A stretch of 25,592 nucleotides of DNA. Origin: a virus. The notes below the pieces were generated by a model. That model made no database searches and was not told where the DNA came from. It worked only from the letters and a program-made list of their open reading frames with translations. The stretch covers positions 1-25,592 of the IMG/VR virus record IMGVR_UViG_3300025913_000101, one strand, 5' to 3'. The translations under genes and the position numbers were made by a program. Positions 3,228 to 22,974 of this stretch are shown here, one piece after another (the first letter of the stretch is position 1; the number at the start of each line of letters is the position of its first letter).

Positions 3228-3277
3228 ACAATACGCCAGAAATAACTATTGGTAAACAAAGCATGGCTTGATATAAA
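3228..3277. promoter_or_regulatory. Overlapping divergent promoters for the inverted cassette and the lysis operon
   Basis: Rightward: TTGGTA (3249-3254), 17-bp spacer, TATAAA (3272-3277), upstream of the holin-like gene at 3311. Leftward: TTTACC (complement of 3251-3256), 17-bp spacer, TATTGT (complement of 3228-3233), upstream of the gene starting at 3193. The two -35 boxes overlap, so polymerase binding at one should exclude the other. This AT-rich gap (3194-3310) is the only long non-coding stretch between 2440 and 5866. Confidence 0.55.
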
Positions 3278-3310: not shown

Positions 3311-3547
3311 GTGGACGGTCATAATAATAGTGTCATCGTCCATTTGGCCGACGCTGGAGCATTGACCGGAGCGGTCGCTGCATTCTTCCACTTACTGCCA
3401 AACCTTACAGCGTTACTTGCCGCGATCTGGATTATCCTCAGAATCGGTGTTGCTTGGCAGGAATGGCTGCTCAACCGAAGGAAGCTGAACGCCTCTCGAT
3501 TACTAAGAGCCGCCGACGAAACACATGATGGCGTGAAGCCGTCGTGA
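3311..3547 (+). CDS. Small membrane protein, holin-like
   Basis: 78 residues from a GTG start; GGGGGAAG lies 6-12 bases upstream, and a stronger AGGAGG lies too far away (3284). Two hydrophobic stretches (about residues 15-31, AGALTGAVAAFFHLLPN, and 32-48, LTALLAAIWIILRIGVA) are followed by a basic soluble tail. That topology and the position at the head of a lysis cassette suit a holin or antiholin. No family signature is conclusive. Its stop overlaps the next gene by GTGA. Confidence 0.65.
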   Translation: MDGHNNSVIVHLADAGALTGAVAAFFHLLPNLTALLAAIWIILRIGVAWQEWLLNRRKLNASRLLRAADETHDGVKPS

Positions 3548-3804
3548 ACCGCTCACTCCGCCGCTTTTACAATGAGGTCCTTCAGGAGCAGGTCCCTGAT
3601 GAGTTCATAAGGATACTCTCCGGCCTTTCCGACGAAGGAGCTGGGAGCGGGGGGCTGACCAGCGGGCGTCTTACTCAGCCGGAGAGTGATATTCGGCACG
3701 CTGACCGCGCTTCTCGCGAAATCCACGCGGCCCATGACGCTCAATCTCATAACTTGAACGCCACGCTTTCAACGCGCTCGGCGTCGGACGGTTCCGATGC
3801 TTGA
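3544..3804 (+). CDS. NepR-like anti-sigma factor (candidate phage regulator of host stress response)
   Basis: Residues 3-28 read SLRRFYNEVLQEQVPDEF followed by IRILSGL. This fits the conserved core of alphaproteobacterial NepR (LR-x2-Y-x2-V-x2-E-x-VPD-x-F-x2-LL-x2-L). NepR is the small anti-sigma factor that holds the general stress sigma factor EcfG and is released by PhyR. About 55 low-complexity residues follow the core. NepR proteins are usually short with disordered ends, so 86 residues is plausible. The gene is coupled on both sides: GTGA overlap with the holin-like gene and an 8-base overlap with the next start. A competing reverse-strand frame (3553-3750, 65 residues) has slightly higher GC3 and cannot be excluded by eye. 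The family match is seen; the action on host sigma factor is inference. Confidence 0.55.
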   Translation: MNRSLRRFYNEVLQEQVPDEFIRILSGLSDEGAGSGGLTSGRLTQPESDIRHADRASREIHAAHDAQSHNLNATLSTRSASDGSDA

Positions 3805-4042
3805 AGTGATAAAATCACGCCTTATCAACGACTGGCGGCAATCGTGGAAGTTCGGCAGCGTCTGGCTTCACTGGATCGGCACGGCAGCATTTGCCTACGT
3901 TATCGACAATCCCAATGCCCTGAACAACCTCGTTTACGGCATTCCCGGCGAGTGGCGAAAGCCGTTCCTGTTCACTCTTGCCGGGGCGTGGTTCGCATTC
4001 GGATGGGCTGTCCGCATCTACAAGGGCAAGTCCAATGGCTAG
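3797..4042 (+). CDS. Holin (two-helix membrane protein)
   Basis: 81 residues with hydrophobic segments at about 22-37 (VWLHWIGTAAFAYVI) and 55-74 (PFLFTLAGAWFAFGWAVRIY), separated by a NALNNLVYGIPGEWRKP loop. This matches a recurrent small holin-type protein of alphaproteobacterial phages, placed directly before the endolysin. It would permeabilise or depolarise the inner membrane and so release or activate the SAR endolysin. Its stop overlaps the endolysin start (ATGGCTAG). Two candidate holins in one cassette suggest a holin/antiholin or pinholin pair. Confidence 0.75.
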   Translation: MLEVIKSRLINDWRQSWKFGSVWLHWIGTAAFAYVIDNPNALNNLVYGIPGEWRKPFLFTLAGAWFAFGWAVRIYKGKSNG

Positions 4043-4517
4043 TCGGGGCCAGAAGATCGCTGCGGCCTGTGCCTTGGCTTGCGGACTGACTGCCGGTTTC
4101 GAGGGATTGCGGACGCGGCCCTACGTCGATCCCGGCAACCACCGGACGCTCACCGTATGCTTCGGAGATACGGAAGTCGAGATGCGGTCCTACACTCCGG
4201 AAGAGTGTCAGATGCTTCTGGAGACCCGCCAGCAGCGCGACTACGCGCCCGGTGTCCTCAAGTGCGTTCCCAACTTAGCCGACAAGAGAGAGGCGTTCGC
4301 GGCCTCGATCGACGCGTCCTATAACGGAGGCGTCTCAGCTTTCTGCCGTTCCCCTATGGCCCAGAGGTTCAACCGCCGCGATTGGGTTGGCGGCTGCAAT
4401 GCCTTCCGCACCTGGCACACCATGCCGGGAACGAACGTCCACAACGGGCTGGTCCGCAGACGCAACGCCGAGGCGGTTCTGTGCCTCAAATCAACCAACG
4501 GGAACCGGGAGGGATGA
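4035..4517 (+). CDS. SAR-type endolysin, T4-lysozyme-like muramidase (GH24)
   Basis: 160 residues from ATG 4035; an upstream in-frame start exists, but this one overlaps the holin stop tightly. Residues 7-20 (KIAAACALACGLTA) are a weakly hydrophobic, Ala/Gly-rich signal-arrest-release segment, so the enzyme is expected to be membrane tethered and inactive until depolarisation. The catalytic triad has exact T4/P21 spacing: E23 (GFEG), D32 (YVDPG) and T38 (HRTLT). The GDT and Y-x-GG elements follow (CFGDT, SYNGGVSAF). It cleaves the MurNAc-GlcNAc bond of peptidoglycan. Several cysteines (12, 16, 42) could give disulphide control as in P1 Lyz. Confidence 0.92.
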   Translation: MASRGQKIAAACALACGLTAGFEGLRTRPYVDPGNHRTLTVCFGDTEVEMRSYTPEECQMLLETRQQRDYAPGVLKCVPNLADKREAFAASIDASYNGGVSAFCRSPMAQRFNRRDWVGGCNAFRTWHTMPGTNVHNGLVRRRNAEAVLCLKSTNGNREG

Positions 4518-4518
4518 T

Positions 4519-4758
4519 GTGTCTTTCCGCCGCGCGCTGCGTAGATGGCTCGCAAACGACAGGCCGGACTTTATCCCGACTGATTGCGTGGTCGCGATCT
4601 GGGGCGGCCCTGTCGGGTGGATCTATGACATCACCGGGGATTGTGCTCGGGTGTGGTGGCATACTGCCGGACACGGACGCTACGAGGTCATCCAGCTTAA
4701 CCTCCTGCGCAGAGGGTCTGCTGACCCTGCCTCGGGCCTGGATGTGAGGCGGAGATGA
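4519..4758 (+). CDS. Small hypothetical protein of the lysis operon
   Basis: 79 residues from GTG 4519, chosen because GGAGGG sits 5-6 bases upstream and the longer frame to 4387 lies inside the endolysin. The core PDFIPTDCVVAIWGGPVGWIYDITGDCARVWW has beta-strand character with a central Trp/Gly motif. No membrane segment or signal is present. I do not recognise the family. It is coupled to the protease gene by an ATGA overlap. Confidence 0.65.
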   Translation: MSFRRALRRWLANDRPDFIPTDCVVAIWGGPVGWIYDITGDCARVWWHTAGHGRYEVIQLNLLRRGSADPASGLDVRRR

Positions 4759-5312
4759 GAGCGCTTGCCCTTGTCCCGCTGATGGCGATGACCGCTCACC
4801 CGGTATCAACGGAAAGCGGCATTCAACCCGTTGGCGATGTCATCGTTAAGGTCGATTGCACGGCAGGATCGGGAACGGCTTTTCGCGTCGGGCCGACCGA
4901 ACTGATCAGTGTCGCTCACGTCGCGACGATGGCGGGCTGCACTATAAATGGTGCACCCTTCACGATCACCTACCGGCATGGCGACTTTACCGCGCTCAAG
5001 GTCGAAAAGCCATCGGACGCTTGGCTGAAGATCGACTGTTCCGGCTTCCTGCCTCGCCACCATTACATCGCTTACGGATTCGCCAGAGGCTTGGACAGCG
5101 AGACCTCCGTAGACCTCACGGCGCTCGGATTGTCTCAGGACGGCGAGGCAATGCTGATCGGGGTTTTTGAGGCGCAACCGGGCCAGTCAGGCGGTCCCGT
5201 GGTGGATGCGGGATCGGGTGAAGTCGTCGGCACTGTCAACGCCGCGAATTGGGAGGCCGGAGTGAGCTTCTCGACGCCCCTACAGGACACTAAGTTATGC
5301 CCGCGCTCCTAA
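4755..5312 (+). CDS. Secreted trypsin-like serine protease
   Basis: 185 residues. A short signal peptide (MRALALVPLMAMTAHPVS) is followed by a chymotrypsin-fold protease. The catalytic triad is legible: H55 in ELISVAHVA, D77 in GDFTALKVEK (as in the DxAxLKV motif of the family) and S145 in PGQSGGPVVD. GSGTAFRV at 38-45 is the usual beta-strand leading to the His. Paired cysteines (35/62, 95) fit a periplasmic location. Known families with this layout are trypsin-2/V8-like proteases. Its place between endolysin and spanins is unusual. It may cut envelope proteins to aid lysis, process virion proteins in the periplasm, or be a moron. The catalytic assignment is strong; the role is inference. 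Confidence 0.85.
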   Translation: MRALALVPLMAMTAHPVSTESGIQPVGDVIVKVDCTAGSGTAFRVGPTELISVAHVATMAGCTINGAPFTITYRHGDFTALKVEKPSDAWLKIDCSGFLPRHHYIAYGFARGLDSETSVDLTALGLSQDGEAMLIGVFEAQPGQSGGPVVDAGSGEVVGTVNAANWEAGVSFSTPLQDTKLCPRS

Positions 5313-16754: not shown

Positions 16755-16794
16755 AATTGTTGGGGGTGCGGTCTGTGACGAGACGGAGGGTCAT
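16753..16794 (-). pseudogene. Truncated duplicate of the N-terminus of the 16441 gene
   Basis: ATG 16794 overlaps the previous stop (ATGA) and encodes MTLRLVTDRTPNN then stop. The complete gene at 16441 begins MTLHLVTDNTRTI with near-identical DNA (ATGACCCTCC, then CTCGTCACAGAC). It is either a remnant of a duplicated leader and gene or a leader peptide. Confidence 0.45.
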
Positions 16795-17480
16795 GCGATC
16801 CTCCCGTAATCAGCGGTAAGCACCGGGATTGCTTCCGGATCGGCAAAACCGAACATGGGAAGGAAGAAGAACGGCTGTTCGCGTCCGCGCAGGAGGCGAG
16901 CGCCTTGAATTTCAGCAGCGGCCCAAGCAGCGTCCCTAGCAGCGTCCCTAGCAGCAGCCCTAGCAGCGGCCCAAGCAGCGTCCCAAGCAGCGTCCCTATC
17001 AGCGTCCCAAGCAGCGGCCCTAGCAGCGTCCCAAGCATCGTCCCTAGCAGCGTCCCAAGCAGCGGCCCTAGCAGCGGCCCTAGCAGCGGCCACTTTTTCC
17101 CAGTCCTTCGCCTTCATGCCGTCGAGATGAGACCAGAAAGCAAGAACGGTTTGGGCCTGATCCCCCAGCACCTTTTCGGGGCGCGTAAGGACAATCGACG
17201 GCGCTCCGTCTGCCTTGTCGTTTACCGAGCGCAGGAGGATTGCGTGTGCCACGCTGATGTTCAGCAGTTTGGCGGTCGCCAGATCGGCCTTGCGCTGTTC
17301 AGCGCTTTGCAGCTTCTTTGGAGTCCATCCGCCGATCAGGTGGAGCACCTGACCCTGCGCACACATGCATCCGATGTTGGTTGGGTCGGCCTCGTAAGCC
17401 TCGAAGTCGATCAGCGAGCCTTTGTATGGCTTGCCTTCGTTCGAGTCCCACCGGGCAATGATTTCAGCGACACTCGCCAT
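16791..17480 (-). CDS. First gene of the leftward operon; Ala/Trp/Asp tetrapeptide-repeat protein
   Basis: 229 residues from ATG 17480, with GGAGGA about 8-13 bases upstream. Residues 1-125 are an ordinary globular domain (CMCAQGQVLHLIGGW; QRKADLATAKLLNISVAHAI; PEKVLGDQAQTVLAFWSHLD). Residues about 130-190 are about fifteen tetrapeptides of the type A-W-D-A / A-R-A-A, coded by 12-bp DNA repeats. These would form a long amphipathic helix with Trp or Arg every four residues. The C-terminal 35 residues are globular again (LLRGREQPFFFLPMFGFADP). As the first product from the PL-like promoter it holds the place of lambda N, but no resemblance to N is seen. Unknown function. Confidence 0.8.
   Translation of the reverse strand: MASVAEIIARWDSNEGKPYKGSLIDFEAYEADPTNIGCMCAQGQVLHLIGGWTPKKLQSAEQRKADLATAKLLNISVAHAILLRSVNDKADGAPSIVLTRPEKVLGDQAQTVLAFWSHLDGMKAKDWEKVAAARAAARAAAWDAARDDAWDAARAAAWDADRDAAWDAAWAAARAAARDAARDAAWAAAEIQGARLLRGREQPFFFLPMFGFADPEAIPVLTADYGRIA
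16914..17093. repeat. Fifteen tandem 12-bp repeats
   Basis: Units are variants of AGCAGCGTCCCT / AGCAGCGGCCCA on the + strand; most differ by one to three bases at fixed positions 2, 8 and 12, and the last unit is degenerate. They encode the tetrapeptide repeat on the - strand. The length multiple of 3 keeps two other frames open too, producing spurious readings (SVPSSGPSS on +, LLGTLLGP on -). Copy number is likely to vary by slippage. Confidence 0.9.
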
Positions 17481-17487
17481 TCTCTCT

Positions 17488-17506
17488 TCCTCCACGCTTG
17501 TGCGTT
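17488..17506 (-). repeat. Leader hairpin repeat, copy 2
   Basis: Exact 19-base copy of 16736-16754; hairpin at 17494-17505 in the 5' leader of the 17480 gene, 13 bases before its ATG and directly before its ribosome site. Confidence 0.75.
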
Positions 17507-22252: not shown

Positions 22253-22974
22253 GCTTCGATGCTCTCGCATGGGCTGGAAAATGCCAGCCGGGAACGGCGG
22301 CGAGAAAGCTTGTGCTTCTCGCGCTCGCCGATAGGCACAACACTGAAGAGAATGCGTCACGCCCATCAACGGCGTGGATAGCTGACTGGACTGGGCTCAA
22401 CCGTAAAACTGTTATCGCTGCGCTGGACGAACTCGAGCGCAGCAACCTCATCAGCGACACAGGCAGGCGTAGCGGGGAAACGGGCCAAATAAAGGTCTAT
22501 TCGCTCCACCTTGAAAGCGTCCCAAAAACGGAACAGTTCCAAAAACGGAACAGTTCCACTTTTTCCTCCAAAGAGTCCCAAAAACGGGACACGGATACTA
22601 TTAGGGAACCAGTAGCTTCAGAAGCTAAAGCTTCTTCAGCTAGACCCGCGCGCAAGCGAGATGAGTTTCCCGCTCCTCCCAATGTTCCTGAAGAAGTCTG
22701 GCGCGACTTTCTGAATAGCCCGAAGCGGCGGAAGGCTGGGATGAGCGCGACCGCTTACGCCGGGATCACGAACAACCTCGTCGTTCTCGCGGAGCACGGT
22801 TTTCCGCCTGGAGAGATGATCGCCCTCGCTGTGGAGCGAGGTTGGACGACCGTGAAGCTGGAATGGGTCTTAAACGAACGGACGCGGCGAAATGAACGAA
22901 CCGACACCAACCCAACCGGGACAGCACTTGCAAGAGTCCAGGCCGCGATACGAAGCGGAGATCCTTTCAACTGA
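22249..22974 (+). CDS. Replication initiator, lambda O-like, with origin inside the gene
   Basis: 241 residues. Winged-helix domain at about 18-85: AARKLVLLALADRHNTEENA, RPSTAWIADWTGLNRKTVIA, ALDELERSNLIS, GQIKVYSLHL. A low-complexity central segment (about 90-125) is encoded by iteron DNA. The C-terminal half (NVPEEVWRDFLNSPKRRKAG, FPPGEMIALAVERGWTTVKL) is the usual partner-binding region of phage initiators. It should bind the iterons within its own gene and load the host helicase. Confidence 0.82.
   Translation: MSFDALAWAGKCQPGTAARKLVLLALADRHNTEENASRPSTAWIADWTGLNRKTVIAALDELERSNLISDTGRRSGETGQIKVYSLHLESVPKTEQFQKRNSSTFSSKESQKRDTDTIREPVASEAKASSARPARKRDEFPAPPNVPEEVWRDFLNSPKRRKAGMSATAYAGITNNLVVLAEHGFPPGEMIALAVERGWTTVKLEWVLNERTRRNERTDTNPTGTALARVQAAIRSGDPFN
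22522..22590. repeat. Iterons of the putative replication origin
   Basis: CCAAAAACGGAACAGTT occurs twice in direct tandem (22522-22538, 22539-22555), and a third partial copy CCAAAAACGGGAC lies at 22578-22590. All are within the initiator gene. Repeated initiator-binding sites inside the initiator gene are the lambda ori design. Confidence 0.75.
22613..22642. repeat. 30-bp imperfect palindrome downstream of the iterons
   Basis: TAGCT-tc-AGAAGCT-aa-AGCTTCT-tc-AGCTA: outer and inner arms pair, with the two TC pairs and the central AA unmatched. It lies 22 bp past the third iteron, and could be the unwinding or helicase-loading part of the origin. Confidence 0.55.

Follow-up and report, generated by a model that had tools for sequence, protein, structure and literature searches.

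A NepR-family gene in a phage lysis cassette with a predicted antisense sigma-EcfG promoter and a conserved hairpin

Analysis of a 25,592-nucleotide stretch of an IMG/VR viral contig (the window) revealed that the lysis cassette of an uncultured phage contains a gene of the NepR anti-sigma family, and that the opposite strand of this gene carries a conserved, predicted sigma-EcfG promoter followed by a conserved hairpin. NepR is a host protein that switches off the general stress response, and in host cells EcfG raises NepR in a plain negative feedback. In the phage, by contrast, the promoter is reversed, and EcfG would yield RNA against nepR. We give about an even chance to the reading that phage NepR and host sigma-EcfG form a mutual-inhibition switch over an antisense RNA that gates lysis; binding to the host machinery, EcfG-driven transcription, antisense action and an effect on lysis timing would all be parts of it. 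The initial annotation had recognized the NepR-family protein, the lysis cassette and the strand, but missed the antisense promoter and the hairpin; with these two elements, the picture of an inhibitor acting in one direction gives way to that of a circuit in which phage and host sigma factor likely act on each other.

The NepR-family gene and its coding strand

The features of the cassette are listed in Table 1. The list of open reading frames agreed with the earlier description of the gene as joined to holin-like genes on both sides, by a GTGA overlap (translational coupling) with the gene at 3311–3547 and by 8 bases with the downstream gene, which is a holin. The 78-aa membrane-protein gene also lies directly 5′ of the NepR-like gene in the related contigs L005, L007 and L023. 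A promoter previously placed near 3272 was not recovered there by a scan with a sigma70-type consensus. Behind the lysozyme, a 79-aa protein (SFRRALRRWLANDRPD...GHGRYEVIQLNLLRRG; about 4520–4758, plus strand) is shared with L002, L003, L004, L023 and L103; it had no relatives among 398 Sphingomonadales genomes or phage records, and gives no clue to the host. A trypsin-like peptidase (PF13365, 1.6e-5, just under the cut-off) is encoded at 4755–5312 (plus strand), directly 3′ of the lysis genes, with near-identical copies in L002 and L003.

Table 1 Features of the lysis cassette and its opposite strand (positions in the window)
Feature	Position	Strand	Remarks
Membrane protein, 78 aa, holin-like	3311–3547	+	One hydrophobic stretch; no confident family
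NepR-family protein, 86 aa	3544–3804	+	GTG start; core residues 3–29 (3550–3630)
Reverse-strand ORF of the initial annotation	3553–3750	-	Not conserved as a protein
Conserved RNA hairpin of predicted antisense transcript	3603–3699	- (favoured)	Arms at about 3615–3625 and 3677–3687
Predicted sigma-EcfG promoter, GGAAC-N16-CGTT	3771–3795	-	Antisense, at the 3′ end of the NepR-like gene
Holin (PHROG 1356 / DUF7940)	3797–4042	+	8-base overlap with the NepR-like gene
Phage lysozyme (endolysin)	4037–4517	+	Start at 4037 inferred; listed ORF begins at 3978

The 86-aa protein matched the Pfam NepR family (PF18557) over residues 3–29 with an E-value of 6.8e-8 and 32.5 bits and so passed the curated threshold (25.7 bits), which bears out the NepR core previously proposed for residues 3–28; in a control search of 14 genomes, Caulobacter alone exceeded this cut-off. 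At E≤10, no PDB sequences other than the NepR chains 3t0y_B and 2lfw_B were matched, and both matches were weak (E 0.04 and 0.19). The score against the NCBIfam equivalog model for anti-sigma T NepR (NF051865) was 23.8 bits where more than 100 are required, so that by this model the protein is not orthologous to Caulobacter NepR. Two helix 1 residues required for function in Sphingomonas melonis NepR, L32 and Y36 (PMC6599016), correspond to L5 and Y9 of the window protein, and both are also retained in L005, L023 and L103. The AlphaFold2 model was of low confidence (pLDDT 57, pTM 0.20), with helices at residues 5–13 and 19–26.

Relatives were found through the C-terminal part of the protein, which is common to three viral contigs, and searches with the upstream gene and the holin added more. 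The same slot, between the membrane-protein gene and a holin or lysozyme gene, is filled in these contigs by differing yet NepR-like proteins. PF18557 scores exceeded the cut-off in L005 (3.6e-7, 30.1 bits), L023 (2.2e-8, 34.0 bits) and L103 and L114 (both 5.1e-10; 39.2 bits in L103), and fell below it in L007 (0.0033, 17.5 bits) and L003 (0.06, 13.4 bits). DNA flanking the core is nearly identical between L003 and the window, the core itself is unalignable, and both proteins are still NepR-like. In L002, L004 and L009 the core has decayed and the VPD motif is gone, with no Pfam match and a profile probability of 51. The gene on the upstream side encodes a different small membrane protein in these three contigs (L002 4633–4980, L004 4780–4968, and in L009), and loss of NepR and the swap of the first holin may be linked.

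A profile built from the phage proteins only matched 141 of 299 Sphingomonadaceae genomes, with one gene per genome, and EcfG or PhyR adjoined at the loci inspected, identifying them as host nepR. Comparison of the phage and host NepR profiles gave a probability of 98 (2.7e-13). Searches by tblastn gave no match supporting a phage isolate with NepR, and the gene was absent from the related phages RHph_N2 and Pan3 and from those Sphingomonadales prophages whose capsid or exonuclease genes are related.

The reverse frame 3553–3750, previously raised as a possible alternative protein, is open in the window; stops interrupt the same frame in L004, L005, L007 and L023, and the product matched no family, which rules it out. 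Codon substitutions were compared with the diverged relatives L023 and L005, and the plus frame differed at codon positions 1/2/3 by 21/23/33 and 35/38/53, respectively. Since third codon positions of the plus frame changed most and the reverse frame is stopped in relatives, the plus strand is the coding strand, as first assigned. Together with the profile match and the relatives, these strand tests support the original claim of a phage-encoded NepR-like protein within a lysis cassette, and we regard 3544–3804 (plus strand) as a real gene of the NepR anti-sigma family.

The antisense promoter and the conserved hairpin

A scan of the window for the sigma-EcfG consensus (GGAAC, spacer of 16–17, CGTT) revealed a single, perfect match, on the minus strand (3795–3771), and no sense EcfG promoter serving the lysis cassette. 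The antisense GGAAC-N16-CGTT occurred at the same position in all nine of the nepR-like contigs first compared; the remaining matches in about 318 kb numbered two and form one homologous pair (G005 and G006). G009, which has the holin and lacks the NepR gene, contained no match to the consensus. The chance expectation is about 0.0016 for each gene and strand. Every one of the ten letters of C-GGAAC and CGTT was invariant among four lineages, compared with 0 of 39 columns further upstream. Of 32 host nepR loci analysed, 31 have the EcfG promoter upstream in the sense direction and none has it antisense, which validates the consensus and sets the phage arrangement apart from that of the host gene. 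That the antisense promoter generally serves a protein operon running leftwards is unlikely, with plus-strand genes lying directly to the left in L002 and L103.

Downstream of the promoter and inside the NepR-like gene lies the hairpin, whose outer-stem arms of 10–11 bases pair in every contig despite differing letters (ACTCTCCGGC/GCCGGAGAGT, GCTCGCCAGC/GCTGGCGAGC, ACTGCCGAGC/GCTCGGCAGT and TGGACCCCGCT/AGCGGGGTCCA). In nine sequences, 99% of the outer-stem cells were paired and 13 cells carried double changes, compared with 3.4 in shuffles, none of 500 of which reached the observed number; L007, which forms a perfect 11-bp stem of its own, could not be aligned to the hairpin set and was omitted from these covariation counts. 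The hairpin folds on either strand. Wobble pairs numbered 13 on the minus strand and 2 on the plus strand, 6 of the 13 coming from one column chosen on the minus strand, and folding z-scores favoured the minus strand in the window, L023 and L103 and were about equal in L005 and L007 (minus in three of five lineages). On these two grounds assignment of the RNA to the minus strand, whose loop (about 3643–3654) is C-rich, is favoured, not proven. No terminator was found for the predicted antisense RNA, and no Rfam family matched the hairpin. Between promoter and hairpin, the minus strand at 3720–3755 reads GTTATGAGA in the window, L004, L009, L023 and L103 and GGGAGATGYAACCG in L005 and L007; this stretch is conserved as DNA, and its reading frame differs in part among the contigs.

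When 2.9 million viral contigs were scanned for the promoter letters only, the known contigs and unrelated matches came up together with two new contigs, L103 and L114. On the strand opposite the scanned promoter both encode a NepR-like protein (5.1e-10), and the previously built covariance model placed the hairpin in them at 69–71 bits. The promoter-only prediction thus held in two further contigs with gene and hairpin. Promoter and hairpin, including the loop, also persist in L002, L004 and L009 despite the degenerate NepR core; retention without VPD suggests that the RNA may have a role of its own where NepR is no longer functional.

Phage group, host and lifestyle

Relatives of other phage genes point to an alphaproteobacterial host: the terminase of the related G002 was nearest to those of Rhizobium phages (39–41%), the exonuclease of the window has a relative in Sphingopyxis flava (56%), and proteins related to the capsid occur in prophages of Sphingomonadales (up to 40%). 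The host of this uncultured group is therefore likely to belong to the Alphaproteobacteria, to which EcfG is described as exclusive (PMC3892343). Neither a sigma region 2 nor a PhyR domain was found in the phage contigs; thus the gene lacks the ecfG or phyR neighbour of a canonical nepR, and, with no sigma factor or PhyR of the phage's own, the partners of its product must be the host's. An integrase-like gene (just under the Pfam cut-off) and a Cro/CI-type regulator indicate a temperate phage.

Two further elements were observed in the window. Two tandem GGAACNGTTCC palindromes separated by a short spacer (22530–22557, and 38363–38390 of G002) lie inside a replication-type gene and look like operator or iteron sites. 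The minus strand at 16791–17495 encodes a protein rich in AAWDAARAAARDAA-type repeats, and the underlying DNA is repetitive.

A candidate stress-gated lysis switch and its alternatives

In the circuit we propose, the phage NepR-family protein would be produced together with the lysis proteins and would bind the general-stress machinery of the host (sigma-EcfG, or its antagonist PhyR), lowering stress-response transcription. Active host sigma-EcfG would in turn have the nepR-like and holin-like genes transcribed in antisense, into an RNA that includes the C-rich hairpin, and so repress both by pairing with mRNA or by transcription interference. Phage NepR directed against EcfG and an EcfG-driven RNA directed against nepR would amount to mutual inhibition. 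Lysis would go ahead where the stress response is off or overcome and be restrained in stressed cells, in which phosphorylated PhyR would additionally titrate the phage NepR.

The phage protein is likely to dampen the host general stress response, and its sequence makes NepR2-like action on PhyR equally possible. A reading in which PhyR, not EcfG, is the partner, as for NepR2 of Sphingomonas or the NepR paralogues of Methylobacterium, finds precedent in PhyR-binding paralogues without detectable EcfG binding (PMC6599016, PMC4814048), and the phage protein, variable outside its core, has no N-terminal extension of the canonical NepR kind. Its core residues, however, are very near those of canonical NepR (3t0y, 2lfw), and we hold this partner choice to be rather unlikely; overexpression of NepR paralogues lowers the stress response in reported cases, so the circuit logic would be unchanged. 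We consider it similarly doubtful that the locus serves mainly to make the antisense RNA, a GsrN-like sRNA driven by sigma-EcfG and acting in trans through its C-rich loop on host or phage mRNAs, with the NepR-like gene as a second overlapping element. GsrN of Caulobacter is driven by sigmaT/EcfG, exposes a C-rich loop and has homologues typically near nepR/ecfG (PMC5869019). Survival of hairpin and loop where the NepR core is degenerate, and z-scores favouring minus-strand folding for three of the five lineages, agree with such an RNA, whereas the hairpin model had no match in 100 Sphingomonadaceae genomes, providing no bacterial homologue there, no Rfam family was recovered, and the RNA is antisense to a gene and not intergenic.

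A one-way takeover, with phage NepR shutting down the stress response at a late stage of infection and an antisense promoter that regulates nothing, being a mere decoy or relic, has a precedent in the Pseudomonas phage protein gp70.1, which binds the stress sigma factor RpoS (PMC5035744); a relic, however, would not retain all promoter positions over randomized flanks in four lineages, and we regard this account as improbable. Chance likeness to NepR in a short helical lysis-cassette protein is strongly disfavoured and would be very surprising: only about 27 residues matched and the AlphaFold2 model is of low confidence, but the Pfam cut-off was passed in four lineages, the reverse profile search retrieved host nepR adjoining ecfG, and the gene bears a promoter of the same regulon. 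The mutual-inhibition switch remains the reading we prefer.

Comparison with known systems revealed parts of this arrangement elsewhere. The phage protein shares with alphaproteobacterial NepR (PF18557; 3T0Y, 2LFW) the two-helix core LR..Y..v..E.vPd.f..lL with its key Leu and Tyr, but is encoded among lysis genes with neither ecfG nor phyR, lacks the N-terminal extension, and has its EcfG promoter antisense, where that of the host is sense and upstream. NepR2 of Sphingomonas melonis and the NepR paralogues of Methylobacterium extorquens (PhyR antagonists) are likewise extra NepR-like negative regulators tied to EcfG promoters; they are chromosomal and activated by their own EcfG promoter, whereas that of the phage opposes its gene. 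With the sigmaT-dependent GsrN of Caulobacter the predicted phage RNA shares an EcfG-type promoter, an exposed C-rich loop and a link to nepR, but it shows no detected homology to a known sRNA, is antisense to a protein gene and is phage-borne. Phage control of a host sigma factor is also exerted by gp70.1 of PaP3 (RpoS) and AsiA of T4 (sigma70); these proteins are unrelated to phage NepR, and we know of no reciprocal promoter for the target sigma factor in either case. Open-access literature on phages with NepR, EcfG or the general stress response described no such system, in agreement with the initial annotation.

With a conserved stress promoter and hairpin on the strand opposite a phage nepR, the regulation of lysis and that of host stress probably oppose one another. 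That temperate phages have made a toggle from host parts, setting NepR against an opposite-strand EcfG promoter and a structured antisense RNA for stress-gated lysis, we put at somewhat less than an even chance. If true, this would be, in the literature searched, the first phage regulator directed at the general stress response of Alphaproteobacteria. It would also be a rare example of a virus acting against a host sigma factor that in turn reads the viral DNA, with the two functions on opposite strands of one 261-bp gene. Phage sensing of host stress in the lysis decision would thereby become a question testable with one gene and one promoter.
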